Positions 3,160-63,395 of a DNA stretch of 64,000 nt are shown one piece after another. The notes under the pieces were generated by a model. It made no database searches and had not been told where the DNA came from. It saw only the letters and a list, made by a program, of their open reading frames with translations. The stretch's first letter is position 1, and every line of letters begins with the position of its first letter. This DNA comes from Chiridota heheva (Eukaryota; Echinodermata; Holothuroidea; Apodida; Chiridotidae). The stretch lies in the NCBI GenBank assembly GCA_020152595.1, contig JAIGNY010001494.1:275001-339000 (forward strand), written 5' to 3'. Both the position numbers and the translations under genes were made by a program.

Positions 3160-3365
3160 CTTTGAAGTCAAATCCAGTCCATCTTCCTTCTTCTGCCTCT
3201 CCTTGATGATAGCGTTCTCTATCATGAATTTACTCCTCAGGTCTTCAAAGTAGTTTTTGCGATACGGGTCTGACTTGACCAAGACATCAAAGGTTGAGAC
3301 GGTGTCTTTCTCATATTTGAGGGGGTCAATGGCCCTCATCAGAAGGATTATTGTTAAGAGACACC
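3160..3365 (-). CDS. RABGGTA: RABGGTA exon 10 (residues 381-449)
   Basis: The acceptor ttctccccatcag precedes GGTGTCTC. The exon reads [40 protein letters not shown] and [20 protein letters not shown], then EDGLDLTSK. This ends the alpha-helical part just before the LRR domain. The donor is AAAG|GTACTG, phase 0. No LRR exon was found between here and the left edge, so the gene continues off-window. Confidence 0.95.
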
Positions 3366-12300: not shown

Positions 12301-15300
12301 CAACATGTAGTCATCATTGCCTCAATTGTTACTTGCATCAACATGCTGCTACAGTACATAGTAACTCAAAGATTGCCTCAATTGTTACTTGCATCTACAT
12401 GTAGTGCTGCTACAGTACATAGTAACTCAAAGATTGCCTCAATTGTTACTTGCATCAACATGTAGTGCTGCTACAGTACATAGTAACTCAAAGATTGCCT
12501 CAATTGTTACTTGCATCTACATGTAGTGCTGCTACAGTACATAGTAACTCAAAGATTGCCTCAATTGTTACTTGCATCAACATGTAGTGCTGCTACAGTA
12601 CATAGTAACTCAAAGATTGCCTCAATTGTTACTTGCATCAACATGTAGTGCTGCTACAGTACATAGTAACTCAAAGATTGCCTCAATTGTTACTTGCATC
12701 AACATGTAGTGCTGCTACAGTACATAGTAACTCAAAGATTGCCTCAATTGTTACTTGCATCAACATGTAGTGCTGCTACAGTACATAGTAACTCAAAGAT
12801 TGCCTCAATTGTTACTTGCATCTACATGTAGTGCTGCTACAGTACATAGTAACTCAAAGATTGCCTCAATTGTTACTTGCATCAACATGTAGTGCTGCTA
12901 CAGTACATAGTAACTCAAAGATTGCCTCAATTATTACTTGCATCAACATGTAGTGCTGCTACAGTACATAGTAACTCAAAGATTGCCTCAATTGTTACTT
13001 GCATCATATGAAGAAAGAGCCCCTTGAAATTACGACGGGTTTCCCATTTCAAGGACACAGCTCAGGTATTACGTAAGCTTTTTGTAGCCCGGTATTAAGA
13101 CGAATTTAAAAATCTTGCCGATCCACCAGTGTAACTTCCTCCCCTGATCTATTTGTTCCTGATGTGACATGACTTCTGAATGCTTTTCATATTGGTGTTG
13201 CTTAATTTAATGCTCATTATTCATTAAGATGTTTCTCTTGTATATACGCCATTGCTCTAATCTATAAATTAAAAGAATTTCTTTAACGTTCGTTCTTTTT
13301 CGTTTCGGATTTTCACTAACGATTAAGTTAAGAACGCGGCATTGGAATGCACGACGTTACAACAAGACATTCTCAGACCAATTCCTTCACACAACAAAAA
13401 TTGAGAATGAGAGTAAATCGGTAGTAAAATCAAGAGACCTGCTATCTAAAGCTCCATGGTAATACACAGAACAGAAGGAACTTTTGATAAACTATTCAAA
13501 CAGTGCGGTTTTTCCATTTCCGTTCACCCATAGAGCTATTAAGTGAGATAATAGCTCCATGGTTTACCACAGCGCTGCTGGCAATGTCGGTCATGCATGT
13601 TATTGTTATGATGTTGTAGGCCTACTGCGAATTTGCGCGTATTCTTAGGATCGTACCATTATCAATGTTTACGTGATCTTCATCCCCATAAACTAAGTTA
13701 ATGTTTCTTTAAATATGAATCTTATTATATTTTCGTTAATCATGGTTATAACAAGAAATGTTCTTACCAAGTTTCGTTTGCTAAAAAGACATAATACATA
13801 TTATAATTTTATTTAAGTAAAATATTCCTCGTGTGATATTGGGTGAACCCAGTTAAGATGGGGAGGAAGACTTTTGGATAGAATGCTCTTCATGATTTCA
13901 AAACTTAGAAATGATTTACCACAAAATACGAAATATAACATCAATTTCGTTTTTGAAAGGTTTAATTCTCTAACAATTTGCACAAGTAAAACAAATTTCA
14001 CATATTTCATACACTAAGAGCACAAATTTTGAGGAAATGAAATAGAAAATTCAAAACTTTTCTAAGACCTGGATGTCAATGTCACCTTATCTTTCCTGCG
14101 TTTACTAGAATGCCACAGGCACAGAAAACAAGGATGGAGTAGCGTTCAAGGGGCGGATTCTGTCATGTCAAGATGTAGTGCTGCTACAGTACATAGTAAC
14201 TCAAAGATTGCCTCAATTGTTACTTGCATCAACATGTAGTGCTCCCACAGTACATAGTAACTCAAAGATTGCCTCAATTGTTACTTGCATCAACATGTAG
14301 TGCTGCTACAGTACACAGTAACTTAAAGATTGCTTCAATTGTTACTTGCATCAACATGTAGTGCTGCTACAGTACATAGTAACTCAAAGATTGCCTCAAT
14401 TATTACTTGCATCAACATGTAGTGCTGCTACAGTACATATTATCTCAAAGATTGCCTCAATTGTTACTTGCATCAACATGTAGTGCTGCTACAGTACATA
14501 TTATCTCAAAGATTGCCTCAATTGTTACTTGCATCAACATGTAGTGCTGCTACAGTACATAGTAACTCAAAGATTGCCTCAATTGTTACTTGCATCTACA
14601 TGTAGTGCTGCTACAGTACATAGTAACTCAAAGATTGCCTCAATTGTTACTTGCATCAACATGTAGTGCTGCTACAGTACATAGTAACTCAAAGATTGCC
14701 TCAATTGTTACTTGCATCAACATGTAGTGCTCCCACAGTACATAGTAACTCAAAGATTGCCTCAATTGTTACTTGCATCAATATGTAGTGCTCCCACAGT
14801 ACATAGTAACTCAAAGATTGCCTCAATTGTTACTTGCATCAACATGTAGTGCTGCTACAGTACACAGTAACTTAAAGATTGCTTCAATTGTTACTTGCAT
14901 CAACATGTAGTGCTGCTACAGTACATAGTAACTCAAAGATTGCCTCAATTATTACTTGCATCAACATGTAGTGCTGCTACAGTACATATTATCTCAAAGA
15001 TTGCCCTAATTATTACTTGCAAATTGCAATTTTGTTTTTGGTTTTTGCAAGTGTGTAAAAATGTATTTGTTTTTACTGGAATATGGGTCCTCCACAAAAG
15101 TCTAGAAATCAATCTTTCCTGGACAATGAAGTAGAATTTGTTTTCAAATTGATAATGCGAAATATATATCACACTTTCCACATGATATATTGTACACTTT
15201 ACACATGATATATTGTACACTTTACACATGATATATTGTACACTTTACACATGATATATTGTACACTTTCCACATGATATATTGTACACTTTACACATGA

Positions 15301-18300
15301 TATATTGTACACTTTACACATGATATATTGTACACTTTACACATGATATATTGTACACTTTACACATGATATATTGTACACTTTACACATGATATATTGT
15401 ACACTTTACACATGATATATTGTACACTTTACACATGATATATTGTACACTTATTGATGCTGATTAGCATGGTTGTATTTGAACACAAATTTGATCAAAT
15501 ATAATCCACAGCAATTCAGTCCCTCAACTTCTCAGTTGTTTCATATGAAACATTTTCCTATTGAATACAATTTCATATCTTCTTTGAAAATTCAACCATA
15601 AGGTTAACAAAAGAAAATAATATTTTTCACAGAAGTGATAACTGCTCTGCAATTACTTACATTTATTTTCTTCCTCTAGTTCTTGTAACTGCTGGCAGGA
15701 CTCTAGCTCTGCATTCAACACCTCAGCTTTTTCAGCACTCAGATCAGATGTAAACAGCTCTGATGCTTCCTTCCGGTAGGTTGGGCTGAACACCACCAGA
15801 GGATCATCTGTCAAAAAAACCATTATCATCATCATCATGTACCATAGCCTAGTCTGGCTGTTCGGGCAACCCGGTTCTAAACACAATCGTCCTCCATAAA
15901 TCTGTCCATGACTAATTGCTTCAGATTACTAAAAGCCCATCCGAGTCCAATTTGGAATGTAACCCAGCCTTGGGTCATCTATGTTTCAACATTATAGAAA
16001 TGTGAATAATTTGATTATATAAATAATGAAAATAATCTGGTCTAATATGACTTATAAGAGGATCATCGCCAGCAATTGGCAGCTATACGGGAGCAATGTA
16101 AAGCTTTCATTGTCCTAACAATAACCGGTATTCATTGTCCCACCTGTAACTCTTTGTGCACATTGGCCTTAGATCTTCTTTCTCAGCTCCCGAGAGACAA
16201 CCAAGACAGATGACAACCAAGACAGATGACAACCAAGACAGATAGACAATGGGCACCCTTACAGCTCCAGTCAATCACTAATTACACTTTACAATGGTTG
16301 AGGGCGTTCTTGGGGAACATCTGTGGATGGATTTTGGAGAAGTTTCTTTAGCTGAATGCTGCAAAAAAAAGGTTCAGTTCTGCCTTGAAAAGGTATCAGA
16401 ACTGCAGTGTCCGACCACACAGTAAGTAACACAATAAACCTTGCGTCAATAAAAAGACAAAAATGCTATACAGACTTGAAGAGAAATGAAAATGAATACA
16501 GAAATGGCCTCGAACGCATGATGGAAATGCTCAGTGGCTGAGGTGTGCAGCATACAGAGTGAGATTTAGCTCATTACTCGTTCATTGGCTGACGGCCAAA
16601 AGTTGTATAACAGTGGTGTCATTCCATGGATACCTGAAACTAAAGTGGGAACGTCAGGAAATGATCAAGTCTAGGAAGCCGCAGCTGGCTTGCACATATA
16701 GTCAGCTTAAAAAGGTTAAGAGCAAAGGTTTCACAAAATCAACATCAAAATAAGATTATGCTTACAATATCCGAATAAGATTATGCTTACCCGTGGTTGA
16801 TAACCCAGAGATATTTGCTACTCCTGTATCAGAAAGTTGGATTCCAATTTCAACTGAGCCTTCTAATGATGTTTCTTCACTGAATTCAAATATCTGTTGG
16901 TGGAAAGTACAGGAAGAGTGAGACAAAGACTAGTATTAAGATACTGCTTTTTAAGTATATGACTTGAATACATCATAATTTAATTGCAGCATGTTCAATA
17001 AAGAATTCTGAGATGACTTTTCCCCATCTTTGTATGATCAATTAATTGAGTACAAACTGATAGTTTGATGAGCTTCAGACAACACACTTTCTTCTATCCT
17101 AACACAATCACCAAAAGCGAATGCCAAATATAAGCCACCACGCCTGAGCACAAAAAGTTCCTTTTCCAAAAACATGAGAAACATGTGACGGCATCTCTTA
17201 TGATTTTAAATGAGGTTAAGTTGGTGTCGTGAAAAAGAGACTTTATTAAGATTTATTTCAAAATGTATAGCTATTAAGTTTATCTGAGATAAAATAACAC
17301 TATCAACAATAACAAGTTAATTTAATTGCTTGTTGTTAGCAAGTCTTCAGCACAACTTTTTGCACAGCTCTTGTCAAAAAGAAGACTGATCGCATGACAC
17401 ACCAATGACTTGGTGAACTGGCATGTAGTGGATACCTACCCACAACAAAGCATGAATGTTTTCATCCTCAGCCGTGTGCCAAGTGCCTGTTACTTCTTCA
17501 CCATTTACCACAACAGTTGCCTTTGTCTCTTTATGTAATTTCAATGGTTTAGCCACAGTGATAAACAGCCTCCTTTGCAATCGATGAAAGTAAAATGCTT
17601 GAACAGATTGAAGTTTTTCACCTGTAAGTCAGAAATAAAAGAAACACATTTCTATACAAAACATAATAAATATATATATGCAATGATCCATTTCATTATC
17701 ATGATCATGTGATGATCTACTTCACTGTCATGATCAACATCTTTACCATGATAATTATTGATGTCATGATCTATAAACCACAGGTTAAAGACTAAAGGGA
17801 AGTTACAGCCTATGAAGAACACTCAGAAAAATCATTGGATGAATATCCAAGATAAACATATAAACCAAACCTTTATTTCATTACAGACATAGTGACACTA
17901 ACATTTTCACAAAATCTTGCCATCTTAATCTCAAAATTTGAAGTGACAGAAACATTATTATTTTGTACTCCGTTACATTCATACCGGTGTAGAACTCCCC
18001 TCAGTCTTGACCTTAGGTTTATATCATTGTTGTGACCTATATCATTGCAATCATGGGCAGCTCATATAATTGTTGTAACCTATATCATTGCAATCATGGG
18101 CAGCTCATATAATTGTTGTGACCTATATCATTGCAATCATGGGCAGCTCATATAATTGTTGTAACCTATATCATTGCAATCATGGGCAGCTCATATAATT
18201 GTTGTAACCTATATCATTGCAATCATAGGCAGCTTATATCATTGTTGTGACCTATATCATTGCAATCATGGGCGGCTCATATCATTGTTGTGACCTATAT

Positions 18301-21300: not shown

Positions 21301-24300
21301 TATCATTGTGATGATCAATATCATTGTGATGATCAATATCATTGTGATGATCAATATCATTGTGATGATCAATATCATTGTGATGATTAATATCATTGTG
21401 ATGATCAATATCATTGATGATCTATATCATTGTGATGATCAATATCATTGTGGTGATCAATATCATTGTGGTGATCAATATCATTGTGATGATCAATATC
21501 ATTGATGATCAATATCATTGTGATGATCAATATCATTGATGATCAATATCACTGTTATGATCAATATCATTGTGATGATCAATATCATTGTAATGATGAT
21601 GATCAATGTAATGATCAATATTACTGTGATGATTAATTTCACTGTGATGATCAATATCATTGTGATCTATATCACTGTGATGATCAATATCACTGTGATG
21701 ATCAACATCATTGTGATGATCAATATCATTGATGATCAATATTATTGATAATCAATATCATTGATGATCAATATCATTGTGATGATCAATATCATTGTGA
21801 TGATCAATATCATTGTGATGATCAATATCATTGTGATGATCAATATCATTGTGATGATCAATATCATTGTGATGATTAATATCATTGTGATGATCAATAT
21901 CATTGATGATCTATATCATTGTGATGATCAATATCATTGTGGTGATCAATATCATTGTGGTGATCAATATCATTGTGATGATCAATATCATTGATGATCA
22001 ATATCATTGTGATGATCAATATCATTGATGATAAATATCACTGTAATGATCAATATTATTGTGATGATCAATATCATTGTGATGATGATGATCAATGTAA
22101 TGATCAATATCATTGTGATGATCAATATCATTGTGATGATCAATATTATTGTGATGATCAATATCATTGCGCACATCTTTTCCATGATAATTTATTAATA
22201 CCACAATAATTGGTATCTACACCTGTTGTAAACTGATGTCTATTTAAGTTCTGATTTTGCATTTTTTGTATCATGTTCTTTTCAGTTCATTTTCATTCAT
22301 TTGTTTCTTCACAATATTCAAATCAAACAATAATAATAATAATAACAATAATAATAATAATAATAATAATAATAGTAATAATAATACTACTAATAATAAT
22401 ACAAATAATAATAACAATAATAATAATGACGACGACAATTGCGATATACTGTACATATAACAAAAATACAGAAAGTTGTAAAAGAAAGTGCCCTAAAAAA
22501 CCAGCATGGCTTAACGAGTGGGGCACTTCCTCAAAGTAATGAGATAATATGACTTAATCTACTTAGGGTATATACATAGTTGTATCTAAGCAAGAATACC
22601 ACCCACCACCCGTGGATAAGAAATATAATATTGGAATCGCTCACTGAAAATACCTCCACCCCACAACATAACAATACAAAAATCAATACGCTTGAATAAA
22701 GTATGTCTTAAGATGTTTACGGAGTAGTATAACTGTTTTTGATGATTTTATTCCAAAAGGTAAAGAATTCCAAAGGTTAACTGCCCAATTTCTTAGACTA
22801 CTGAAGGCGGTTTTATTACGACAAGGAAAGGAATGTATGTTATTGTGTTGTCTTGTGTTATACAAGAGTATTTGATTGTTTTTAGTAAAGAACAAATCAA
22901 AATCGTTGGGTAAGCTACCATACATTTGAAGGTGAAAATAGCAATGTTAGTGCTTATTAGATCTGGCAGTTTTAACAGGTTAAGGAAAGACTAGAACGGT
23001 AACTACCGTCATGGTTCGCATGCCCATGCAAATTGACACCCATATTATATGACCCGCCAATTATAAAAATGACATCTCACACTATGTCCCACATGGCATC
23101 CCATGTACCACATGTCATCTCACTCCATGTCCCACATGGCATCCCACATGGCATCCCATCCCATGTCCCACATGGCATTCCACCATATCTTCCACATGGC
23201 ATTCCACCCCATGTCCACATGACATCCCATGTCCCACGTGGCATTCCATCATATGTCCCACAGGGCATCCCATTCTATGACCCACATGGCATTCCACCCT
23301 ATGTCCCACATCCCATGTACCAAATGACATCCCACCTCATGTCCCACATGACATCCCATGCCTTGTCCCACTTGGCATTCCACCATATCTCCCACATGGC
23401 AAACCACCATACAGTGTCTCACATGGCATTCCACCATATGTCTCACATGGCATTCCACCATATGTCCCACATGGCATTCCACCATGTCCCACATGGTATC
23501 CCACGCTATGACCAACATGGATTCCATCCTACATGTATGTCCCACATTAATCCAACCATATGTACCACATGACATCCCTCCTATGTCCCACATGGCATCC
23601 CTTCCTGTGTCCCACATCAATGGCTTCCGACCTGATGTTCCACATAGCATCCCACCATATGTTCCACATGGTATCCCTCCTAATGCTTTGATGACATTCT
23701 ACTTTATGTCCCACATGGCATCACATCCCATGTCCCACATCCCGTGGCCTCCTACCCTATGTCCCACATAGCCTCCTACCCTATGTCACACATGGCATCC
23801 TACCTTATGTCACACATGGCATCCTACCTTATGTCACACATGGCATCCCAACCTATGTCACACTCTGTGTTACTCCTGGCATCCCATCATGTCCCACATG
23901 GCATTCTACCCTGTTCCATATGGCATCCCACCCCATGTCCCACATGGCATCCCATTCCATGTCCCACATGGCATCCCAACCCATGTCCCACATGGCATCC
24001 CACCCCATGTCCCACATGGCATCCCACCCCATGTCCCACATGGCATCCCACCCCATGTCCCACATGGCATCCCACCCCATGTCGCACATGGCATCCTACA
24101 TGGCAACCAACCTTATGTCTCACATGACATCCCATTAGCTCCATAAGAAGTCTCATCCTAGCTATCACAGTTCCTGATTGAGCACACTATGTATTAAAGT
24201 GTCAGTTCATATAATAACTTATATGCAAATGAGTTGTTGAATAAGAAAAAAAGGTGGAGTCAAATAATTATGCCTGATATAGCCCTTGGTGTATACAACA

Positions 24301-27300
24301 TGGTAAATATTAAATCATATGTCCTTCATGGCCCCCATCCATGTCCCACATGGCATCCCTCCCTATGTTTATATGCAATCACATCCTGTCACACATCCTG
24401 ACTAAGCATATTAAATAAAAAAGTCTGGTCAGGTCATAATACTGTAGCAACTTTATGCAAATGAGCACAATACTAAAGGTGGAGTTTAAAAAATCATGCC
24501 TGATACAACTGTTGATGCCCAAATATTTTGAAGAATTTTAAGGATTTTAAATCTCAAGTACTACAAGAGAGACTTGGAGATCTCTGACTAATATTGGAAA
24601 ATTATATCATTTTACAGTTATCTTCTAAGAAAATATCAAATGTATTGTAGACTTTTTCAGGAAACTAGTCCTCAATCCTATCTTAAGTATCTCTGAAAAA
24701 CTTTAACATTTTATAAGGAAACTTTAACCTTTTCTGAGGAACTCTGAAGAAACTTTAACATTTTCTGAGGATTTCTCAAAAAACTTTAACATTTCTGAGG
24801 AAATCTCAGGACAAATCTGTGGATGGCCGGACGGACGTAATCGCCATTACATAGGTTTGCATAATGCTACGCATGCGAACCAAAAATAAGAAACTTGTGT
24901 GATCATAAATATCAGAATTGTTGATGTGACGAATTGCACGTTTTTAAAGGACTATTATTTATTTATGTAAGATCTACTGCAGGCAGACCAAATTGTTGAA
25001 CAATATAAGAAATGTGGTAATACTAAAGTTAAATAGATACAGCGAAGAACATGTTTGGGTAAGATACAGCGAAGAGCATGTTTGGGTAAGATATGCTTAA
25101 GCTTAGACAATCTACCAACACTTTTTGAAACATTGATTGAAAACAATTCTATATGGTCATGCCATGAGTTTTGAATCAATAAAAACACCTAAAAACTTAA
25201 TCTTATTAGTACGAACAAGAGGTTTCCCCTTAAGATAAATTTCAAAATCAAAATAAGCTTCACTATTACTAAATACTACATAATTTTATCAATATCAAGG
25301 GATAATTTGTTAGCGGTAAACCAGTTGTGAAAAAGATCAAGCTTATTACAAACTAACTGTTGAAGATTATAAAGATAGTCACCAGAAAAAAATATATTAG
25401 TATCATCTGCGAAAAGAACAAGTGAAGAATTTGACGATAGTTCACTTATATCATTTACATAAATGATAAAAAGGAGCGGACCTTAAATTGATCTTGCGGT
25501 ACACCACATTGAATGAAAAGGGTATCAGAAAATATTACATTAAAATATGTGAATTGCGTTCTTTTAGACAAATAGCTACAAAACCAAGATAAACAGGTAC
25601 CTCTTATTCCACAATGGGACAACTTAATATATCGTGATCAATTGTATCAAAGGCCTTCGATAAATCAAGGAAAATTCCTATGCATGTAAGTTTTTTATCA
25701 AGGGCACTATATAAGTTATCTACTGCATCAGTAAGAGCTAATGCAGTGGACATACCTTGACGAAAACCATATTGACCATCAAAAAGTATATCATGCTTAT
25801 TTAGGAAATCATATACTCTATTTTACACAATCCGTTCAAGTACCTTAGAAAATATGAGAGGACAGAAATGGAGCGATAATTACCATAAGATTTAGGATCA
25901 CTTTTTTTATAAACAGGGATAACTTTTGCAGTTTTTATTTTGTCAGGAACAATACCACTTGAAAGGGAAGCGTTGCAGATATGTGTTAAAGGGGCTACAA
26001 TTAAGTGTATTATTTTCTTCATAATAGAGGGTTTAAAGTTATTAAAACCAGTGGCTTTATTTGGCTTTAAACATTGAGAGGCTATCTTCAGAACTTTTCT
26101 TGGGTTGTTGGGAATAGAAAAAGAGAGTGGGGATTGTGAGTATTATTTTTGAGATAATCCTTGGCATGCGTTCGAGATTGTATATGTTCTTGCATTTAAG
26201 TACCAAGTTTGAAAGTTGTTTAAGAAGTCATCTGTTATATTTTCTCTTCCCTATAAATTTTCTAAGGAATACTTCTAGATGAAGGGTACACTAAAAGACT
26301 GTTACTTGCTTAGTATGTTACTCTGGATAAAGAAGTGGACTCTTTGTTCTGTAATAGTTGCGACTTGTAGCAATGATCTGAATAGTGCAATTATTGCGAG
26401 CAATATCTTTAATGAAATACCGTTGTTACTGTTCTTATGTATTATTAACTGTATATGATTGTCAGCCTTACCTCTACCCATCAGCCATCTATGGTAGAAC
26501 CAGGCACTTTGGTCATTGGGATCAGTGAAGAAAGCATTTTGCACTAGTTCATATTCTGAAGTAAAGACAAGAAAAAGTCATACTACTCTGAAAGAAAGAA
26601 CCAAACAATAAAAATGAAAGTTACACTTAACTTTCTGGTTTGTGGTGACTTATTATTTTGTTTCTAACCTTGAAAGTTCTCACCATCAAAGAGATAATTC
26701 ATCACGTCCAAAATTTCCTGCTCTTTACATTCCAATACAAATTGTATTTCCAACAAGATGCTTATAGAGGAAATATCGGGTAGACCCTTCGCAAAATAAT
26801 TGCTCAGCCTGCAAAAAAATATCAGTATATAACTGAACAACTACATACATGAAACCAAATTTAAAAGATTGGTGAAATTTTTTGACTATAGGATTTCTGA
26901 TCAAATCAGAGTGGTGGAAATAATCATGACTATAGGGTTTCTGATCAAATCAGAGTGGTGAAAATCTCATTACTAAGGGTTTCTGATCAAATCAGAGTGG
27001 TGGAAATCTCATGACTATAGGGTTTCTGATCAAATCAGAGTGGTGGAAATCTCAGGACTATGGGGTTTCTGATCAAATCAGAGTGGTGGAAATCTCAATG
27101 ACTATAGGATTTCTGATCAAACCAGAGTGGTGGAAATCTCATGACTATAGGAATTCTGATCACTTCAGAGTGGTGGAAATCTCATGACTATAGGGGTTCT
27201 GAACAAATCAGAGTGGTGGAAATCTCATGACTGTAGGGGTTCTGATCAAATCAGAGTGGTGGAAATCTCATGACTATAGGGGTTCTGATCAAATCAGAGT

Positions 27301-30300
27301 GGTGGAAATCTTATGACTATAGGGCTTCTGATCAAATCAGAGTGGTGGAAATCTCATGACTATAGGAATTCTGATCAAATCAGAGTGGTGGAAATCTCAT
27401 GACTCTAAGGGTTCTAATCAAATCAGAGTGGTGGAATCTCATAACTATAGGATTTCTGATCAAATGCTAAACACATTAGGAGTAAGAAAATTGATCTACT
27501 ATGTTTGTATCAGAAGAAAAGAAGAATGTAACGATGTGTAAAGTGGGAGTGAAAGTAATCTATAAGAAATAGAGCAAAGATCTCTACACAGACACAAATT
27601 GAACAAAGGTCTCTTACTGTTACTACAGCCTGTACCACAAATGCTTTTATCTTATGGGGTTCAGTAGCATCCTGAATTAATTTTCTTTTGCAATAAAATC
27701 TTTATGAAACCAAGAAACTTGCACAAATATTGACTAGAACTGTGGGAAGGACAGTATGTTCGACTATTCAAAGCTAGTATAGAAAATGAGCTTATAGAGG
27801 GAATTATATACAGAAATAGGGTAGCAGAGGCAAATGATTTCAAATTACTTGAGCTTTGAAAGATGCACTTACATTTTCATTTGCTATACAAGCTTTAAAA
27901 TATCTTTTGAGTTTTCCCAGATATTTAAAAACAAAAAAAGCTCAACGTTACTTCACTCAGTAACTCAGAAAACATGTAAAACCTAGCAGTCTTTATAAGT
28001 ACATCACCTCTTTTAGTTCTATCAATTGAATAACAAAGAAAGGAGAGGCCCTGACTTGTTAATGTCAATAAAATTGGCAGTCATTTTGTCTTTTTCTGCC
28101 ATTTTGAATAGTTCAAAACAATATTTTTACTGTTACCAATTGAAAACGTGTCTAGTGGACCCTAAGGCTTTAGAAAAATATTGGTTCAGAGAGTTAGGGG
28201 AAGGGGGGGGGGGGAGGGAAGGGGTGCATGTGGAGTGCATCTGGCCCATTGCTTAATGGACATACAAACTTGCTTCAGTAAAAGCTGTTAACTGTGTGCA
28301 TGACTTAGGTGTTTGTTTGATTGCAAGCTAAATATGAAAACCCATGTAATGAAAAAGATGTAGAGCAGCATTTATCAATATTAACAGAATAAGGCCTATA
28401 CTAACTAACGAATGAGCTAAATTCCTTGTACATGCATTGCTAACTAATGAATCAGCTGTATCCCTTGTACATGCATTAGCCCATTCCCACATTGACTATT
28501 GTAACTCCCTCTTTGCTGGTACTGTATGCCAAGTAACTTAATTCAATCCATTCAACGTATTCAAAATTTTGCTGCACGGATAGATAACAAAGGCTAAGAA
28601 ATATGATCATTTAACTCCCATTCTCTATTCCCTGCATTGACTCCCAATTACTCTAAGAATTAGATTGAAGATTTTAGTATTAGTTTTTAAATGTATTTAC
28701 TGTAAATCACGAAACTATCTTCAAGAACTCATATTTTGTAAAAGCTCCAAATATAATCTTCGTAATAGAAATGCTGTTTGGTTTTTATGTACCAATCATA
28801 AAGCACACAACACTTGGTGGGAGGGCATAGGGTGGGACCACTCTGGTGGAATAAACTACCAGTTAAAATCAGACAAACTGAAAGTCAATCCATGTTTCTA
28901 AAAGTTCTTCAAACTCATCTTTTCAAAGCTTATTTTAATAGTTAATTTAGTTATTTTTTATCAGCATTTTATGGGGTAAGGGGTAGTTTCATTTATTGTG
29001 ACTGTATACATAAAACGCTGTATTAATTAATCATTAACATTATTAACTTATGTCATAACGTAAGTACCCATTTAACATCCACCCTCCCCTCCCTTGATGC
29101 GACCCCTCCCATATCCATGCCCCTCTCATCCCTATACTCTCCCTCCCCCATTCACTGTTCCTCCCCATTTTTCTCCAGCCCCTCCCTGTTCCTGAAGGAA
29201 GGAGACTATTTTATCTGGAGGATTTTTTTGGAAGAACTCAGCAATTGAGTTGTGGGGAGCGAGAGAAGCATAATAGAAAAAAAAAATCAAAATAGCTTAT
29301 GTTTTGTTTTTCAACAGATAATCTTTTAAAGCTATTTCAAAAGAATTTGGACTATGCAGGGACTAAAGCTTTCATCCAGTTTATTCCCAAACCTTAGACC
29401 ATTTACTCTGATATTATTTGATATACTGATGACTGAATTTATGTTTTAATGTAATTTTCCTCTTTTTATGTATTGTACATATGGATGTCATTTATCACAA
29501 CACAAATTAGAGGATATCAAAAGGACACAAATGAATAAACCTTGCAAGAGTGTGGTCTCAGTGGGTCTATCAGCATTGACTGGATCTGGGTACAGCAAAG
29601 GTAACAGCTTGGATCGATAGTGCCATGATGAATAATTTGAAAAATTTGTGTTGATTTTATTGGTCGTAAATTGAAGCTCCTCCTCAGGTGAGATCTGGGC
29701 TTTGGTCACGACAAATCTGCGATAATCCCAGCAGTGAACTGCAAAAGAGTAAAATTTGTTTGAATTGAGCTACTGTATAAATATGATCAAAATGACACAA
29801 TGGTATAAACTTATTGCTATGCTGTGGAAATACCTAAAGTGATATGCATGAAAGGGGGTGGGGAGAGGGGGAGGAGTAAGGGGTGGGAAATTGCCCAACA
29901 ACAAATGTTGCTGTTCTTGTGGAAAACAAGTAACAGCTTTATGACATTGGTAGTTACATAAATCAAAGCTATAGATAACAGTGCATGGATGAACTACATC
30001 CTCACTGCAATAAATTGATGAAGAATTGAGAAAGAATACTTAAAACTTAGTCAATTTGAAAATGTATTTCCTCAATTTCATGGCTTTTACACTTTCAATG
30101 TTTAAGTTGGCCATAAACAACAATATGCACAAAGAAAAGATAACAAAATGCACAGCCTGAAAGGGGTATAGAAGACTTTCTTTAGGATTCTTTCAAGATA
30201 AATATTGAACAGATGGCAGGTAGTTTGTCGCTTTCATGATATGAATGAATAACACAAAAGCCAATTCTTAGGTTTTGAGAAAAAGCAAAACAGTCATTCA

Positions 30301-33300
30301 GTAAATTTGATTTTTGATATCTGTAGTTCTTTCCAATTTTAGATTCAAAGCTGTGGTCATTTTTGTTATCCGGATGCTCTGATAATCTGACGATAGGTTG
30401 ACTAACTGGTTAACTCTATGGAAGAGCGATCACCTCCCAGATTAAATCCTGGGTTGGGTCATATCAAAGACTTTAAAAACTTGGAAACAAGTTGGTTTGT
30501 CTACCGGCTCCATCTACCCTTGGTGCATGCCATTCTTCTTTATATTAGTTAGACTTATACCTAAGATTCTTGTTACTTCTGATGACATGGTGCTTGCACA
30601 GATTACATTTAGACAATCTAAATCAACAAACATTACACAAGATGAGATTGTGTCCTCACATACTTACTTCCTTTCATCATACTCCAGGGCACACACCACA
30701 CAAGATGAGATTGTGTCCTCACATAGTTACAGTTCTTTTCATCATACTCCAGGCCACACACCACACAAGATGAGATTGTGTCCTCACATACTTAGTTCCT
30801 TTCACCATACTCCAGGGCATACACCACACAAGATGAGATTGTGTCCTCACATACTTAGTTCCTTTCATCATACTCCAGGGCATACACCACACAAGATGAG
30901 ATTGTGTCCTCACATACTTACAGTTCCTTTCATCATACATCAGGGCACACACCACACAAGATGAGATTGTGTCCTCACATACTTAGTTCCTTTCATCATA
31001 CTCCAGGCCACACACCACACAAGATGAGATTGTGTCCTCACATACCTACAGTTCTTTTCATCATACATCCAGGACACACGCCACACAAGATGAGATTGTG
31101 TCCTCACACACTTAGTTCCTTTCATCATACTCCAGGCCACACACCACACAAGATGAGATTGTGTCCTCACATACTTAGTTCCTTTCATCATACTCCAGGG
31201 CACACGCCACACAAGATGAGATTGTGTCCTCACATACCTACAGTTCTTTTCATCATACATCAGGACACACACCACACAAGGTGAGATTGTGTCCTCACAT
31301 AGTTACAGTTCTTTTCATCATACTCCAGGTCACACACCACAAGATGAGATTGTGTCCTCACATACAGTTCCTTTCATCATACTCCAGGGCACACGCAACA
31401 CAAGATGAGATTGTGTCCTCACATACCTAGCTCCTTTCATCATACTCCAGGGCATACGCGACACAAGATGAGATTGTGTCCTCACATACCTAGTTCCTTT
31501 CATCAAACTCCAGGGCATACGCGATACAAGATGAGATTGTGTCCTCACATACTTACAGTTCCTTTCATACTCAAGATGAGACTCCATACTGACAGTTCCT
31601 TTCATCAAACTCCAGGGCATACGCGATACAAGATGAGATTGTGTCCTCACATACTAAGTTTCTTTCATCATACTCCAGGGCACACTCGACACAAGATGAG
31701 ATTGTGTCCTCACATACTGACAGTTCCTTTCATCATACTCCAGGGCACACGTGACACAAGATGAGATTGTGTCCTCACATACTTACAGTTCCTTTCATCA
31801 TACTCCAAGAATAAACTGCAGAGTTGCACCTCTTTCTTCCAGTCTGGCTCGGGCATGTGGGACATGACCCATGACCTGTGGTGCCACACTCCATATGACT
31901 TGGGATTTACTTGAAGACATGTTTCAAGAAACTTTAGCTCTTGAGAGAAAAGATTCTGGAGCTCCTCTGTTGGACTAAGATTTAAGAAAGATCAATTTGA
32001 GAAATAGGTTTCACAGATGAAAATATTTTGCTGGTTACATGTATCTTTAACATGAACAAATCTGTATAAAATAAATATGTACTGAAGATACAGAATGTAC
32101 TGTTTAACACCTATTTCACAATCTTAATTAGACTTGTACTACAGCCACCATTTCATGACCAATCTCAATTAATTTGGCAGCTACAATGAAGGCTAAAGAC
32201 TATATTTTTGCACAATGAGTGTACCACTGGATTCTGGAAACAAGTAGGCACAGCAGGTAGACAAGCTAATTATAAGATATAATGGATGCTATAAAGCCAT
32301 GATGTGAAGGGCATTGTAATGGTTTCTTACAAACCACATATTTAATCTATTGTACTCCTTATGACAGAAGTGATAGACTATCTGTCAAGAAGCTACACAT
32401 ACAGTAACACCAATTTTTGTCCTGCAGAAAATTGCTTTGTAAAAACCAATTAAGTCTCCTGCTTCAGGTCTTGACAACATACTGTATGTATACAAATGAT
32501 AAAACAGAGTGTTCGTGTAAGTTTGGAGAGCACGACAGAATATGCCATTTATATTCAAGATCCATAAAATTAACGTCAAATTTTATAGAGGCCATTTCTC
32601 AAAAATGGAAATAGTATTTGTATGCTCACCACTGTACCTGACAGTCGATCATTACATATAGTTTTCTTTTTGGCCCAATACTATAATAAGAAGCCTATGC
32701 TACACTCCACATACAGTATCTATCATTAACTAATTTCAGTCTTACACCATACACCATAATGAATGACTAAATCCATAGAATAACAAATCTTACTATGTGG
32801 TCTTTAGATGGAGGAAAACTTCACGTCTGAAATTCCATAAAGTGTAAAAGTCTGGGTTAGCTCCAAGGATTTCACCTGTTACTTTGAGGCATTCTTCATC
32901 AAATTCCCCTTTTGCTTTCTGAAAAGATATATGAATGTATAAAGATGTATAAATGTATAAAGATGTATAAAGATGTATAAATGTATATATGTATAAAGAT
33001 GTATAAATGTATAAAGATATATAAATGTATCAAGATATATAAATGTATCAAGATATATAAATGTATAAAGAGATATAAATGTATAAAGATATATAAATGT
33101 ATAAAGATATATAAATGTATAAAGATATATAATTGTATAAAGATATATAAATGTATAAAGATATATAAAAGTATCAAGATATATAAATGTATAAAGATAT
33201 ATAAATGTATAAATATATATAAATGTATAAAGATATATAAATGTATAAAGATATATACATGTATAAAGATATATAAATGTATAAATATCTATAAATGTAT

Positions 33301-36300
33301 CAAGATATATAAATGTATAAAGATATATAAAGATAAATGTATAAAATATATAAATGTATAAAGATATATAAATGTATAAAGATATATAAATGTATAAATG
33401 ATATATAAATGTATAAAGATATATAAATGTATAAAGATATATAAATGTATAAAGATATATAAATGTATAAAGATATATAAATGTATAAAGATATATAAAA
33501 TGTATAAAGATATATAAATGTATAAAGATATATAAATGATAAAGATATAAATGTATAAAGATAATTAAATGATTAAAGATGTAAATGCATTTTAATCATC
33601 TAGTAAAAAATATCAAATCACTTTAAGTGGATTAAAAGTTTAAATTAATTTAAAGTGTTCTATACATCACTAATTAAATGATTAACTTTTACTTAAATAC
33701 AGAGAGTCTATATTGAACAATATTTGATGGGAATTTTTGTTTGCTTTTTAATATTCACAATACCTAGTTACATAATGTTTTATGTCCAATGTCCGTAAAG
33801 CAGTTGACCTTCCCTAAACATACATGTATCCACCTTGTCTACAATGTGGACATTTTATAGTGTGTATGCCTAATGCACCCAAAATTTCTAATCCAAAAAC
33901 AATTGAACAACAAACTACTATTTTGATTAACAAGCTGCTATTCTAAACTAGTTAAATTTATCTCTGGTATACACAAGCTTCATTTCCAAACATGGAGAGG
34001 AAAAGAGGAACCCTAGACTTCTTTCTATTGGCTGGTTTATTTTAATCTACCGCTAGATCATCACTTGATCTTAACCCTTAAATGCTAGAGCCTCCCAACC
34101 ATCACTCCATCTTAACCCTTAAATGCTTGAGCCTCCCAATCATCACTCCATCTTAACCCTTGAGCCTCCCAATCATCACTCCATCTTGACCCTTAAATGC
34201 TAGAGCCTCCCAACCATTACTCCATCTTAATCCTTAAGCCTCCCAACCATCACTCCATCTTAACCCTTAAATGCTTGAGCCTCCCAATCATCACTCCATC
34301 TTAACCCTTAAATGCTTGAGCCTCCCAACCATCACTCCATCTTCACCCTTAAATGCTTGAGCCTCCCAATCATCACTCCATCTTAACCCTTGAGCCTCCC
34401 AATCATCACTCCATCTTGACTCTTAAATGCTAGAGCCTCCCAACCATCAATCCATCTTAATCCTTAAATGCTTGAGCCTCCCAACCATCACTCCATCTTG
34501 ACCCTCAAATGCTTGAGCCTCCCAATCATCACTCCATCTTGACCCTTAAATGCTTGAGCCTCTTAATCATCACTCCATCTTAACCCTTAAATGCTTGAGC
34601 CTCCCAATTATCACTCCATCTTAACCCTTAAATGCTTGAGCCTCCTAATCATCACTCCATCTTGACCCTTAAATGCTTGAGTCTCCCAATCATCACTCCA
34701 TCTTGACCCTTAAATGCTTGAGTCTCCCAATCATCACTCCATCTTAACCCTTAAATGCTTGAGCCTCCTAATCATCACTCCATCTTAACCCTTAAATGCT
34801 TGAGCCTCCCAATCATCACTCCATTTTGACCCTTAAATGCTTGAGCCTCCCAATCATCACTCCATTTTGACCCTTAAATGCTTGAGCCTCCTAATCATCA
34901 CTCCATCTTGACCCTTAAATGCTTGAGCCTCCCAATCATCACTCCATCTTGACCTCTAAATGCTTGAGCCTCCCAATCATCACTCCATCTTAACCCTTAA
35001 ATGCTTGAGCCTCCCAATCATCACTCCATCTTAACCCTTAAATGCTTGAGCCTCCCAATCATAACTCTACCTTAACTTAAATGCTTGAGCCTCCCAATAT
35101 CACTCCAATGCTTCCCAATCATCACTCCATCTTAACCCTTAAAAGCCTTGAGCCTCCTAATCATCACTCCATCTTAACCCTTAAAAGCCTCCCAATCACT
35201 CCATCTTCCCAAATCACTCCATCTTAACTCTTAAATGCTTGAGCCTCCCAATCATCACTCCATGCTTAAATTGCCTCCCAATCATAACTCTACCTTAACC
35301 TTTAAATGCTTGAGCCTCCCAATCACTCCATCTTAACCCTTAAATGCATCTAATCAACTCCATCTTAACCCTTAAATGCTTGAGCCTCCCAATCATCACT
35401 CCATCTTAACCCCTAAATGCTTAAACCTCCAAATCATCACTCCATCTTGACCCTCAAATGCTTGAGCCTCCCAATCATCAGTCCAATCAACCCTTAAATG
35501 CTTAAATCATAACTCCATGTAAATGCATAAGCCTCCCAACCATCACTCCATCTTAATCCTTAAATGCTTGAGCCCCCTTATCATCACTCCATCTTAACCC
35601 TTAAATGCTTGAGCCTCCCAATCATAACTCCATCTTGACCCTTAAATGCTTGAGCCTCCCAATCATCACTCCATCTTAACCCTTAAATGCTTGAGCCTCC
35701 CAATCATAACTCTACCTTAACCCTTAAATGCTTGAGCCTCCCAATCATCACTCCATTTTAACCCTTAAATGCTTGAGCCTCCCAATCATCACTCCATCTT
35801 AATCCTTAAATGATTGAGCCTCCTAATCATAACTCCATCTTAACCCTTAAATGCTAGAGCCTCCCAACCATCACTCCATCTTAACCCTTAAATGCTTGAG
35901 CCTCCCAATCATCACTCCATCTTGACCCTTAAATGCTTGAGCCTCCCAATCATCACTCCATCTTAACCCTTAAATGCTTGAGCCTCTTAATCATCACTCC
36001 ATCTTAACCCTTAAATGCTTGAGTGTCCTAATCATTACTCCATCTTAACCCTTAAATGCTTGAGCCTCCTAATCATCACTCCATCTTGACCCTCAAATGC
36101 TTGAGCCTCCTAATCATCAGTCAATCTTAACCCTCAAATGCTTGAGCCTCCCAATCATCACTCCATCTTGACCCTTAAATGCTTCAGTCTCCCAATCATT
36201 ACTCCATCTTAACCCTTAAATCTTGCCCCTAATCATGCTAAATGGGTCTCCCAATCATTACTCCATCTTAACCCTTAAATGCTTGAGCCTCCCAATCATC

Positions 36301-39300
36301 ACTCCATCTTGACCCTTAAATGCCTGAGCCTCATATTTAGAATCTGTCTTTTTGGGAAACTTTTTTAGAGAATGCTTTTTTCCACATTTTCCTTTCCTTT
36401 GCTATCATTACAAGTAATGTGTTAAGTGAAAGGTAATACTTTGATCTTCACAATGGCCCACATCATTTCACACTGGAGTATGCAAATATATGCAAATTAG
36501 TTAATTTAGTTCATGCCCAGTGAACAAAACTGCTTAACTTTGTGTTTATGTACTCTTGTGGTAAGCATTTGTGGCGTTTTTGATAGATTTCATAAAATGT
36601 TGATGGAAAGTTCTATTAAATGATACCACTCATGAAATTTTGGAAGTAGGAACAACTGGAATATGCAAATTAGTTTATGCCACATTTTGACCTATATCTT
36701 GACCCATTATTATCAATTTTTACAATATTGTGGGAAAGCGATAATAACCTGAAAATATGGTTTACTTGTTTGTAGGCTCTTAAAAATTAATTGTATGATA
36801 TTCATATTCATTATTATATTATTGTGTATTATATTTTGCATGCTTATTAATATGCAAATTATCTCAAAATAAGGAATGAAATAAGATATGAGAATGATTT
36901 CATGGTTGAGAAAATGCAAATACCATCCCAACTTTTCCTCATTTTCCTAAAAAGGAGTTTCATGACCCAGATAAAACTTTTCATTCTATAAAGTATATAT
37001 ATTCTCATCCAAGATGGTTAATTTATTTGTAAAATAAGTAAAATATACTCTTATTATTTACTGTAGAAAGTATGAAATGCTGTGTATGGTCATGATTTTG
37101 CACAATAGGTATGGGGGATTAGCACATACTAGTCAACAGGCCTGAAAAGAATTAAACAAAATGTACTGATTTACCTTTACTTGAGACTGCCTCCTTCAGT
37201 GTTCACCTCTTTCAAACTATTTTACCATAAATCCTACATGTTGATCTTCAATTACTTTTTCACAAGACTTTTTTAGTAAAAAAATGTGCAGGCTTTACGA
37301 TAAAGTCTTTCCATCAACCAAAATCTTTGCAAAGTTGCCAATCTTCGAACATTGCAATGGTATCTTCTTTTTGGTGAGGGGGCTATGCATCAACATAGTA
37401 GCTCATTTGAAAGCTGACTTCAGGTCTATCAGATGGCAGAAAAACATTCCGTTCTGATTTTGCATTCTAGAGCTAGATTTTTTTTTAACATGTTGCTTTA
37501 AAATGGACTGAAAATAATGGTAAGTAACAGTGTAAAATGCCCCAAAATAATGGTAAATAACAGTGTAAAATGCCCCAAAATAATGGTAAATAACAGTGTG
37601 AAATGCCCCAAAATAATGGTAAGTAACAGTGTAAAATGCCCCAAAATTTAAAATTTGAGATGGGTTTTGGCAAAATTTGATTAGAATTACAATATTTGAT
37701 ATTCATGAATGACTTTCACCCCCAAAAAAGTTGAAACTCTTTTTAGACTTTATTCTAAATATTTATCAATTTTTGGGAAATTTGGGTGAAAATATGAAAA
37801 TTACTCATGTTTGGCTCTATTCGTCTCTGAAAATCTCAATATGACCCCATCAAAAATGGTTAAAAAAAGAATCGAAGGAGTTCTTTCAAATGATATACAA
37901 TTTACCTCCGTATCTGTTTGGTATGGTCCCAAAATTATTTATTGAAATTATTGAAAATTGCACTTCCAAATCAACAAAAATCATGTCGGTCTGGCGTTTA
38001 ACCCTTACTCTACCATGCGGCGATATTATCTCCGTTTTCAAACCACCTTTTTCTAAAATAATTGGGACTTTACCAAAGTCCTATGGAGTAATCTTGGTAT
38101 CATTTTAGAGTACTCCGATATTTTTTTCAGAATGTAACTTTTTTATAGGGGTCATATTGCAGAATTTTGGGAAACATTTGCTTGAAAAGGGGGTAAAATT
38201 CAAAAATTGCTAAGAAATGAGCAACAAATGTTTTTTTCTTTTTCTTTTAAATCTTACAATAATTTCAAGATCACATTTTTGCTTCAAAATCAAACATGCA
38301 AATCCTGAGACATGTTATTATTGATTTCTGGTCTAATTTTTATAATCACTACCTGAAATATTTTGTTTTAGAGATATTTCTTTGAAATTTCATAAATTTC
38401 TGCCATTTTCGACTCGTTTTTTCCAAAGCATTGTGTAATAAAAACGTACATCGCACATGCTTCCTTAAACCGCCCCGCCATACAAAAGTGCTTGCAATTT
38501 CCTTTAATTTGATATATAATACAGGCATACCCCCCCCACATCACTTTCAATGATCTTGTGGTGTAGAGGATATGAATGCGGCTAGCATGGGAGCGCACCA
38601 GGTTCAAGTCCCACCGTGACTACGGTGTTATAATTTTACTACTGCAGTTTTCAGGGGTCATTTGACTCAAATAATTTTTGGTGTTTTTTATCTTTCCTTT
38701 CTTTCTAAAAATTCTAGATTAGCATCATTGGAAAGGAAATTTCATAAAGAATCTAAATATTTGTAACACATATCTCTGTTTTCAATACTGACAAGAAGTT
38801 ATATTTGTGCAAAGATTGGCCATTTGTTGACCAAATTTAGCCAAACATTGCTTAAATAGCATATTTTTGTCCAATATTTCCTAATTTGGCTTTCATTACT
38901 CAAAAGATAATTATCTTAGCTTCTATTCCAACCAAAATTGTAATGAAAAAAAAAAGTGAAAAGGAATGTTGTCAATAATGCATACAAAAAAAAAAAGTTA
39001 CAAAAATTGGGCTCACACTTTTCAATGCCCTGGTAGAGTAAGGGTTAAGAGTGCTTTCCTTTTTATTCACAAATCATGCCACATGAATAACAGACCTTGC
39101 CAAAGACTAACTTGGTGGACACATGAATTACAGACCTTGCCAATGACTAACTTGGTGGACACATGAATTACAGACCTTGCCAAAGACTAACTTGGTGGAC
39201 ACATGAATAACGGACCTTGCCAAAGACTAACTTGGTGGACACATGAATAACGGACATTGTCAAAGACTAACTTTGTGGACACATGAATAACAAACATTGC

Positions 39301-42300
39301 CAAAGACTAACTTGGTGGAGACATGAATAACAGACCTTGCCAAAGACTAACTTGGTGGACACATGAATAACAGACCTTGCCAAAGACTTACTTGGTGGAC
39401 ACATGAATAACAGACATTGTCAAAGACTAACTTGGTGGACACATGAATAACAGACATTGTCAAAGACTAACTTGGTGGACACATGAATAACAGACCTTGC
39501 CAAAGACTAACTTGGTGGACACATGAATAACAGACATTGTCAAAGACTAACTTGGTGGACACATGAATAACAGACCTTGCCAAAGACTAACTTGGTGGAC
39601 ACATGAATAACAGACATTGTCAAATACTAACTTGGTGGACACATGAATAACAGACATTGCCAAAGACTAACTTGGTGGACACATAAATAACAGACCTTGC
39701 CAAAGACTAACTTGGTGGACACATGAATAACAGACCTTGCCAAAGACTAACTTGGTGGACACATGAATAACAGACCTTGCCAAAGACTAACTTGGTAGAC
39801 ACATGAATAACAGACATTGTCAAAGACTAACTTGGTGGACACATGAATAACAGACCTTGCCAAAGACTAACTTGGTGGCCGCTTTGTAAAGCTGCAGTTT
39901 CTTTTCCCTCTCCTTCCGTTTGGCCTCTTGTTGCTCAGCCGTTGTTTTAACTTTGACTCTCCCATGCTGCAAAATGAGATAAAGAATATTGTCTTACTGC
40001 TTACAATCATTCTAAGTTTCTGCTGACACACTTGAGGAAAAATTGCAGAAGGTGAGCTCCATACAGAAAAATGAGTTTTTGTTAAAATATTTCTAATACT
40101 TTCTTCACAACCAAATGAATAATATAAAGCAACTGCACGTGACACATGTTTGTAACTTTAACAACAAATTGAGGAAAATTGTGACCCTTTAGGAGGGTTG
40201 AACCAACACTCCAACTTTCACCACTTTGCACTATTTGTTTAAAGTTTCTTATGAGGTTCTTTTTAAACTGACTATAATAGCAGTCATGGATTTCTTTTCA
40301 GCAAAATACTTTCTAATTAAAAAAAAATTGTCTTCAATTCCAATTGAATTCATAGGGAGATTTTATCATCCTAACAATCATGCAATACAAAGCCTATTTT
40401 GGAGCTTGCAGCTATAATCTTTATAATAAATCATTTGGTCGCATTACAAGGAATCGGACATTAACAACCACTTTGTTTCAGATCACAATTTGCAGCATCT
40501 ACCAAACAAAAAATTCACAACTTTTTACCTTAGAGCTTACAGTAAAAACAACAGAACAGAAATAACTGTTCAATTTAACTGAAAAGATAATATACAAAGA
40601 GTAATAATTATTTATCTATTTATTCATTTATTCATTCATTTATTCATTTATTTATTCATTGATTGATTTATTGATTGATTTTATAATCAGCCAATTAAAC
40701 AGTCTTTCAAAGTTAATCATTAAACATTCATCTGAGAGAAGATCTTCTAGTATGATAGAACACTTGCACATGCAAAACCCTGAAGAAAGCCTGTTAGGCA
40801 TACTGTAGGCCACACTTGAAGTGGCAACCATAAGGGTCATTAGTGTTGGGCTCTATAGGAAAAACCTCAAATTTGGTTGCTTTTTTATTCTTATTTGAAA
40901 AATCTTGCATCCCTGGTCATGAAACTGAACAATTGCAAAAAATATTCCTTAACAATGCATTCCCTGCAAAAAAATATCAAAAACACTTTTCTCATTGAGA
41001 GCAAAATCAGGGAAAATTTGAGACACTTTTTGAGGCCTTAAAAATGAAACTGCAGTTGTTTGTTATTACCAACATCAAGTTAAACTACACTATTTACATT
41101 TGATCATCAACAAATCTGAAATTTGGGGTGAAAATATCCTTTTAACAATATACTGACCATTATCTAGTCATTATTTAATATCTCAATAAATTTGACAGAA
41201 GCTACAAATAAAACAGCTGTTTATAAGTCTAACATGGGTTTTCAGAATACTGTAGCTTCAAATTTGTCCGATTTTGCACTCAAGGAGGAAAGTTTTGAAA
41301 CATTTTTTTGCAGGGAATGAATTGTTAAGGAATATATCTTGCCATTTCTAGGAGTTTCATTACCAGGGTCAAGGGATCCAAGAGTTATTAAATAAGAATA
41401 CAAATTTGAAAAAAAAGAAGAAAAGAGGTTTTCCCTATGCAGCTTAACGCTGATGACTCCTATGCTTGCCATTTCAAGTGTGGCCTATATCAGGTCACCG
41501 CACATATTAGATGCTACAGGCCCCCATTTGCAGCTTAATCCAGCCCACAAAGCTACTGTATACCCAAAAGCTTAATTCAAACATTCACAAATTCTTTCAA
41601 AGAAACAAATTGTTTGGGTACCTGATATGTTATAATCAGAAAACCAAAGGTTTTGAGGTTCCGACACACAATATGAATTTTGGGTTTGAACTATTGTATA
41701 ATGAATGTTACTGCACACTGGGCTCAAAATACCAATGACAACCAAATAACTCACAGCACTCACAAGAGTGGAATTTCACAATTTATCAAATTAAACCATT
41801 TTTATCCTATTAACATGTATACACTTGCTAATAACATAATTATTTCAAATATGAAATGAACCAGACACGCAGTTAAAATATGAGCATTTCACGATTTGAA
41901 TATATGCCTTAATTGTCTACCCATTATATGCATGACATCGCCGCTAAAACCAATAGGGCACATCTGCAGTCCATGGGCAATCTGTGTACCATGTATAACC
42001 TGAATCCCACCCACATAATGTTCTAGAAATATAAGTTTACAACAAAATGTGAAATGTGCTAAGTACAGTAGCAGTAAGGTAGGATGTAGTGATTGTGACT
42101 TCATTAGTTACCTCCGCCAACAAAGAAATGTGAATGTGAAGTAAGGTAGGATGTAGTGATTGTGACCTCTTAGTTACCTCCTCCAACAAAGAAATGTGAA
42201 ATGTGCTAAGTAGCAGTAAGGTAGGATGAAGTGATCATGACCTCATTAGTTACCACAATCAACAAATGGAGATTTAGTTTTCGTCTCTGTTAATTTGTTT

Positions 42301-62224: not shown

Positions 62225-63395
62225 TCGGACATTCTTGCAGCAATGGATAAAGGTAGACTCGTTGCCCTTGTCCTTCTTGATTTGGCGCTGCCTTTGACAC
62301 TGTGGATCATTGCCTGTTAATCAATCATCTTCAAAATATTGGTTTTAATGGACCATATTACAATGGTTCATGTCCTTTCTAACTAATAGATCACAATGTG
62401 TACAAATTAATGATACAATTTCTTCACCATCTAAGCTTTCATATGGTGTGCCGCAGGGGAGTGTACTTGGTCCGATTTTGTTTTCCATTTATACTAGTTC
62501 TATTGGTAAAATTATATGTAAATATGATTTTCATTACCACTTGTATGTGTATGCCGATGACACACAATTATATATTTCGTTTAATCCCAATCAAGCTGAA
62601 GCAAATTTTGCACTGCATAAACTTGAATCATGTATCGTTGAAATACGCAAGTGGGTGTCCTCCAACTTTTTAAAGTCAAATGATAATAAAACTGAATTTA
62701 TTGTTCTTGGTTCCAAACGTCAGCGTAACAAAATCAACCTCCCTTTTCTTCAAATTGGTAATGCTCAAGTATGTGTAGCCTTTAAAGTTCGTAACCTTGG
62801 CTCCATTTTTGATGCTGATATGTCAATGGCTGACCATATCTCTGAAATTTCTAAATCTTTATTATTTCATTTACGTAGCATAGGACTAATCAGAAAATAT
62901 TTAACATTGCCTGCCACTGAACAAGTAGTTCATGCTTTTGTCTCTTCCCGCCTTGATATAGGTAACTCTTTTTTATAAGGTCTCCCTGCCAATCAAATCA
63001 AACGTCTCTCCCGCTTACAAAATATTGCTGTCAGGAATGTTACCCCAAGTAAACCAAATGAACATATTACTCCCATTTTAAGGAATTTACACTGGCTACC
63101 AATTCATCATAGAATTCTTTTTAAAATACTTGTTTTTGTGTATAAGTCTACTCAAGCATTGTCTCCCACATATATTTCTGATCTTTTAATCCCATATATA
63201 AGTCTCCCCGCCAGTTCATGCATTCTAATTTCGAACTTCAATTAGCTATTCCACGTACTTTTAGAACATGGGGTAAACGTTCATTTTCTTCTGCTGCCCC
63301 TTTTTTATGGAACAGACTTCCAGACAACATCAAACTTTAATAGTCCTTCTCTCAATTCTTTTAAATCATCAATAGAGACATTCCTCATGTATTCT
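62225..63395 (+). pseudogene. L2-like non-LTR retroelement, reverse transcriptase and C-terminus
   Basis: A 202-codon open frame (62370-62978) runs [48 protein letters not shown] (catalytic YADD), FNLKSN-type NDNKTEFIVLGSKRQ and AFKVRNLGSIFDADMSMADH, ending VSSRLDIGNSFL. Upstream, frameshifted LLDL-AAFDTVDH can be read. Downstream, after a stop, NEHITPILRNLHWLPIHHRI and ILFKILVFVYKS follow. It is the best preserved retroelement here, though truncated and inactive. It lies in or after the divergent gene. Confidence 0.9.

Follow-up and report, generated by a model that had tools for sequence, protein, structure and literature searches.

Minisatellites spanning two 5' splice sites in a homolog of RABGGTA

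Introduction

What becomes of a gene in which a 5' splice site heads a row of near-identical copies of itself, and is such a row a device that tunes splicing or a mutational by-product that the gene tolerates? The question is raised by a stretch of DNA of 64,000 nucleotides, here called the window, in which a first-pass annotation had pointed to a tandem array at the exon 2 donor of a minus-strand gene. Minisatellites that span exon-intron boundaries are known from lancelets under the name of 'mirages'; excerpts of PMC3087553 give Adh3 and the globin genes BflGb6 and BflGb9 among the loci, to which the excerpted text of PMC3902484 adds a mirage in PGBD5 and a citation of troponin C. Both papers, in the same excerpts, report that regular splicing is undisturbed in the lancelet genes, though many of the units have splice signals.

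Results

The minus-strand gene and its exons

Most exons were placed with a human protein as the query, and exon 7 was placed through further frame reading. Exon boundaries were set by homology and phase, those of exon 2 by homology only. The exons are listed in gene order, with a slash marking the splice site.

39856..39966, minus strand: exon 2, by homology; donor CAAG/GTCTGT, intron begins at 39855
32794..32918, minus strand: exon 3, by homology and joined frame
31787..31974, minus strand: exon 4, by homology and joined frame; donor AACT/GTAAGT, intron begins at 31786
29541..29738, minus strand: exon 5, boundaries without tandem copies
26472..26555, minus strand: exon 6, boundaries without tandem copies
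17440..17621, minus strand: probable exon 7, insert domain; donor at either 17439 or 17435
15661..15807, minus strand: later exon, number provisional; one exon between here and exon 7 missing
3160..3365, minus strand: next exon; a 48-bp array stops 29 nt before it, the acceptor excluded

Joined together, exons 2-7 give a frame of 296 aa without a stop. The joined protein matched 1dce_A, the solved alpha subunit, over residues 2-300 (E 1.1e-106) and contains five stretches of Pfam PPTA repeats (E 4.5e-42), while the 37 codons of exon 2, queried with a start Met added, matched RabGGTase alpha chains at E 7e-10. Judged by these sequence matches, the gene is a homolog of RABGGTA (Rab geranylgeranyltransferase alpha subunit), and the 1dce_A and PPTA matches bear out the identity proposed at first pass. 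The product of RABGGTA is a Rab-modifying enzyme, and the gene is conserved and of the housekeeping type. Exon 1 was not found in the 64,000-base window by homology and frame reading, nor was the exon expected between 17440 and 15807.

A 40-bp array across the exon 2 donor

39079..39878, minus strand: array 1, 20 copies of 40 bp, from Tandem Repeats Finder and the register in gene orientation

Tandem Repeats Finder reported this array at 39080-39878 with a period of 40, 20.0 copies, 94% matches, 0% indels and a score of 1416; base 39079, the last of the array, is a mismatch to the unit, hence the start at 39080. The sequence of copy 1 (39878-39839) in gene orientation is CCACCAAGTTAGTCTTTGGCAAG followed by GTCTGTTATTCATGTGT, with the splice site between the two parts. 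The unit thus consists of the final 23 nt of exon 2 and the initial 17 nt of intron 2, and copy 1 is the real exon 2/intron 2 boundary, from which 19 more copies extend down to 39079. Alignment of the copies confirmed the earlier claims that the unit crosses the splice site in these proportions and that there are about 20 copies, of which Tandem Repeats Finder gave 20 of 40 bp without gaps; chance similarity is ruled out by 20 copies without indels.

The consensus of the array is copy 1 itself, and copies 4, 8 and 10 match it at every position. Between pairs of copies the identity averages 94.4%, with 13 of the 40 unit positions variable and 27 invariant. Private variants are common to neighbouring copies (GTCC in copies 16-17 and GTCTGTA in copies 18-19), a pattern that would fit local duplication. 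Furthermore, the array has a GGC triplet at either outer end (GCGGCCACC and TGTGGCATG), and the inner junctions, GTGTCC, are one base off. The outer triplets hint at, and would be compatible with, a first duplication primed by microhomology, which leaves one base of the inner junctions unexplained.

Predicted strength and consequences of the distal donors

The GT dinucleotide is retained in 20 of 20 copies, and the base at position -1 is G in 12 of them (CAAG/GT) and T in 8 (CAAT/GT). The row of GT noted at first pass is therefore real, but the count of about 20 potential 5' splice sites was somewhat generous in view of the eight copies with T at -1. Donor strength was estimated as a simple U1 duplex energy, which is a crude guide and not a splice-site prediction. 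On this scale the native donor lies at -5.4 kcal/mol and the CAAG sites range from -4.5 to -7.0 kcal/mol, copies 18 and 19 outscoring the native donor at -7.0 kcal/mol, whereas far poorer pairing is predicted for the CAAT sites (-0.8 to +0.5 kcal/mol). In copy 13 (39365-39398), a T to A change gives an additional donor-like CCAA/GTAAGT of -5.6 kcal/mol; the GTTAGT of the remaining copies lies at -1.7 kcal/mol in 18 of them and at -3.6 kcal/mol in copy 7. From each of the 19 distal donors the frame would run into the same stop, at codon 49 from the first exon-2 codon, so that the earlier prediction of 11 extra codons before a stop is borne out for all 19.

A second array at the exon 4 donor

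Sixteen junction probes, covering 8 acceptors and 8 donors of the RABGGTA homolog, gave 20 matches for the exon-2 donor, 19 for the exon-4 donor and 29 for the exon-3 acceptor; the other 13 matched only themselves. Boundary-spanning tandem copies occur at two of the 16 junctions, the exon 2 and exon 4 donors, and at none of the 8 acceptors probed.

30635..31807, minus strand: array 2, unit of ~64 bp, from Tandem Repeats Finder and the junction probe
32923..33580, minus strand: U-rich 18-bp array (ATACATTTATATATCTTT in gene orientation), ending 4 nt before exon 3

The unit of array 2 comprises the final ~21 nt of exon 4 (TGGAGTATGATGAAAGGAACT), the intron-4 donor and further intron sequence. 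Eighteen copies were recognised by pattern, which missed one or more degenerate units in the interval 30871-30745. Of the 18 recognised copies, 10 have GT in the corresponding position and 8 have lost it; GTAAGT is present there in 3, another copy (30680) having it shifted by two bases. The units are more divergent than those of array 1, and the variation differs quite markedly between the two arrays. Exon 4 ends in codon 142, and read-through into array 2 meets a stop at codon 167. Array 1 had been presented as a lone remarkable case; the array itself is real, but the RABGGTA homolog has a second one of this kind, and the class to which they belong already has a name.

Two further arrays stop short of acceptors, by 4 nt at exon 3 and by 29 nt at the exon 3160..3365. 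For the exon-3 acceptor, the probe was covered, among the matches listed, at bases 1-31 of 70, and the exon begins at base 36. The 18-bp array is no boundary duplication, AG and exon sequence being excluded from it; as it ends 4 nt before exon 3, it supplies the greater part of the acceptor's pyrimidine-rich tract.

Discussion

Origin and role of the exon 2 array

We regard array 1 as an intronic minisatellite of the mirage type and mainly as a tolerated mutational by-product, with a probability of about 0.8. A 40-bp segment across the exon 2/intron 2 boundary would have been duplicated in tandem, after which unequal exchange or slippage would have raised the number of copies to 20. The extra copies would have grown on the intron side, downstream of the real donor, so that the exon-side copy keeps both the frame and the donor, and the array would be tolerated because this copy still works. 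The exon-side donor would be the one used, the 19 intronic copies would be spliced out with intron 2, and the rare products of distal donors would be degraded by nonsense-mediated decay, to which stop-bearing transcripts are subject. The 20 indel-free units of 23 + 17 nt, the frame that joins exon 3 without a stop and matches RabGGTase alpha, the private variants of neighbouring copies, the same architecture at exon 4, which is a second, independent case, the minisatellites throughout the window and the lancelet precedents with normal splicing argue for this explanation. Against it stand the native donor, which copies 18 and 19 outscore, the additional donor-like site in copy 13, the origin of the precedents in lancelets and the expectation under random seeding of only 0.054-0.107 donor-straddling arrays, so that plain random birth may not suffice.

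This last point bears on the possibility that 5' splice sites are targets of minisatellite birth, for instance through co-transcriptional breaks or R-loops, which would make the boundaries hot spots. Two of the 8 located donors have boundary-spanning arrays where the expectation at random lies far below one, and the exon part measures about 21-23 nt in both units. In the random seeding model, the 19 arrays within 3160-39966 were taken as independent and uniform and set against the 8 donors, which are defined by homology and of which one (exon 7) is uncertain; the probability of two or more donor-straddling arrays is then 0.0014-0.0053. The test was, however, undertaken on account of the first case, and a fairer measure is the probability of one or more such arrays under the same model, 0.052-0.10, which suggests but does not prove that arrays favour boundaries. 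Moreover, the numbers are tiny and come from a single gene, tolerance may simply be greater for copies on the donor side, and no acceptor is spanned, yet two arrays end within 4 nt and 29 nt of one. We consider targeting unlikely, albeit deserving of attention. It is extremely improbable, on the other hand, that the assembler inflated or collapsed the copy number of the array. The copy number of tandem arrays is often unreliable, and assembly trouble at such loci is mentioned in the excerpts of PMC3087553 and PMC3902484; nevertheless, the copies vary at 13 of the 40 unit positions and have variants in common with their neighbours, unlike the result of an exact duplication error, and the second array of the same type varies in quite another way.

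The row of donors could also be regulatory: a distal copy would sometimes be chosen, adding 40 nt per copy and the stop, and the length of the array would set the loss of RABGGTA mRNA. GT in 20 of 20 copies with the full CAAG/GT in 12, the stop at codon 49 common to 19 of 19 distal donors and some distal sites whose predicted U1 pairing equals or exceeds that of the native donor are consistent with such a role, and for human IFI6 an excerpt of PMC4526556 cites the use of donors in repeat units further downstream. The retention of GT is, however, no sign of selection by itself, and selection on it is unsupported, since most unit positions (27 of 40) are invariant. In addition, the eight CAAT/GT sites reach only -0.8 to +0.5 against -5.4 kcal/mol for the native donor, 8 of the 18 recognised copies of array 2 are without the corresponding GT, and the lancelet genes of the same architecture are reported, in the excerpted parts of PMC3087553 and PMC3902484, to splice undisturbed. 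We judge a regulatory role improbable, and the sequence lends no support to the earlier suggestions that splice choice tunes or reduces expression and that the array may differ in length between individuals. A still broader proposal would combine the two ideas: in this lineage 5' splice sites would be favoured birthplaces of minisatellites, genes would repeatedly grow rows of decoy donors, and the row at exon 2, in which several distal sites equal the real donor in strength, would divert transcripts into unproductive splicing to an extent set by its length. This strikes us as very improbable.

Relation to known systems

Mirages are characterised by a boundary-spanning unit, an authentic end copy together with an intact frame, splice signals in many units, undisturbed regular splicing, and length instability (between haplotypes or somatic). 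Both arrays of the RABGGTA homolog have a boundary-spanning unit (23 + 17 nt in 20 copies for array 1, ~21 nt of exon 4 for array 2), an authentic boundary as the end copy, with a frame that appears intact over exons 2-7, and splice signals in many units (GT in 20/20 and 10/18, respectively). The lancelet clusters, as described in the excerpts, likewise have signals in many, not all, units and the authentic copy at the end, and the Adh3 units given there, of 10-72 bp, bracket the 40 and 64 bp found here. The RABGGTA homolog differs from the excerpted cases in being another gene, in having 20 and about 18 copies versus 3-6 in BflGb6 and in carrying two arrays in one gene; those cases are from cephalochordates. 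The class of boundary-spanning minisatellites is already described, and what is added here is the presence of two in one gene, one of them with 20 copies.

An exonic minisatellite with multiple splice donors was reportedly described in IFI6 by Turri, Cuin and Porter in 1995, to go by their title. This human minisatellite (IFI6 is also called 6-16 or G1P3) is cited with its multiple donors in the excerpts of PMC2572611 and PMC4526556, and downstream repeat units are, according to the latter excerpt, really used as donors, resulting in three mRNA species. Each IFI6 unit, as there described, offers a 5' splice site, as in array 1; in contrast, the use of any of the 19 distal donors of the RABGGTA homolog would bring a stop. 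The unit lengths differ too, that of IFI6 being about 12 nt. Tandem duplication also copies splice signals in intron gain by tandem genomic duplication, of which the potato RdRp gene is an example (PMC4974935) and for which PMC3087553 cites the model of Rogers. There, however, duplication inside an exon creates a new intron, whereas in the RABGGTA homolog the end of an existing intron is copied, and a new intron or exon is not evident.

With two boundary-spanning minisatellites, a conserved gene joins the few loci of this kind named above, and it constitutes a natural test of exon-side donor choice among up to 20 near-identical donors. If the source is not a lancelet, the known range of mirages would be widened. 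Exchange from array to exon is a possible mutational hazard for exon 2: if any of 8 among the 20 units were converted into the exon, Lys would become Asn at its final codon and the donor would lose strength.

Other repeats in the window

Merged tandem arrays number 37 in the window and occupy 24,825 of its 64,000 bases. Among them are about 125 copies of a 61-bp unit at 5265-13006; the unit recurs at 14168-15021. A 24-bp unit of the CATGGCATCCCACCCCATGTCCCA type occurs in two arrays about 22 kb apart (824-1458 and 23069-24134), whose flanking frames also look alike, which suggests a dispersed element carrying the array. Fragments of reverse transcriptase (Pfam RVT_1) lie at 58907-59284 on the minus strand, at 62349-62975 on the plus strand and, below the Pfam cut-off, at 25279-25482 on the minus strand. 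ARAGORN found no tRNA genes in the window, and the segment 38556-38630, by eye like the head of a tRNA-derived SINE, was not called as tRNA by this program; Rfam matches at gathering score are likewise absent from the window. Outside the main arrays, the G+C content is 35.1%, which is lower than that of Branchiostoma, and the observed/expected ratio of CpG is 0.46.
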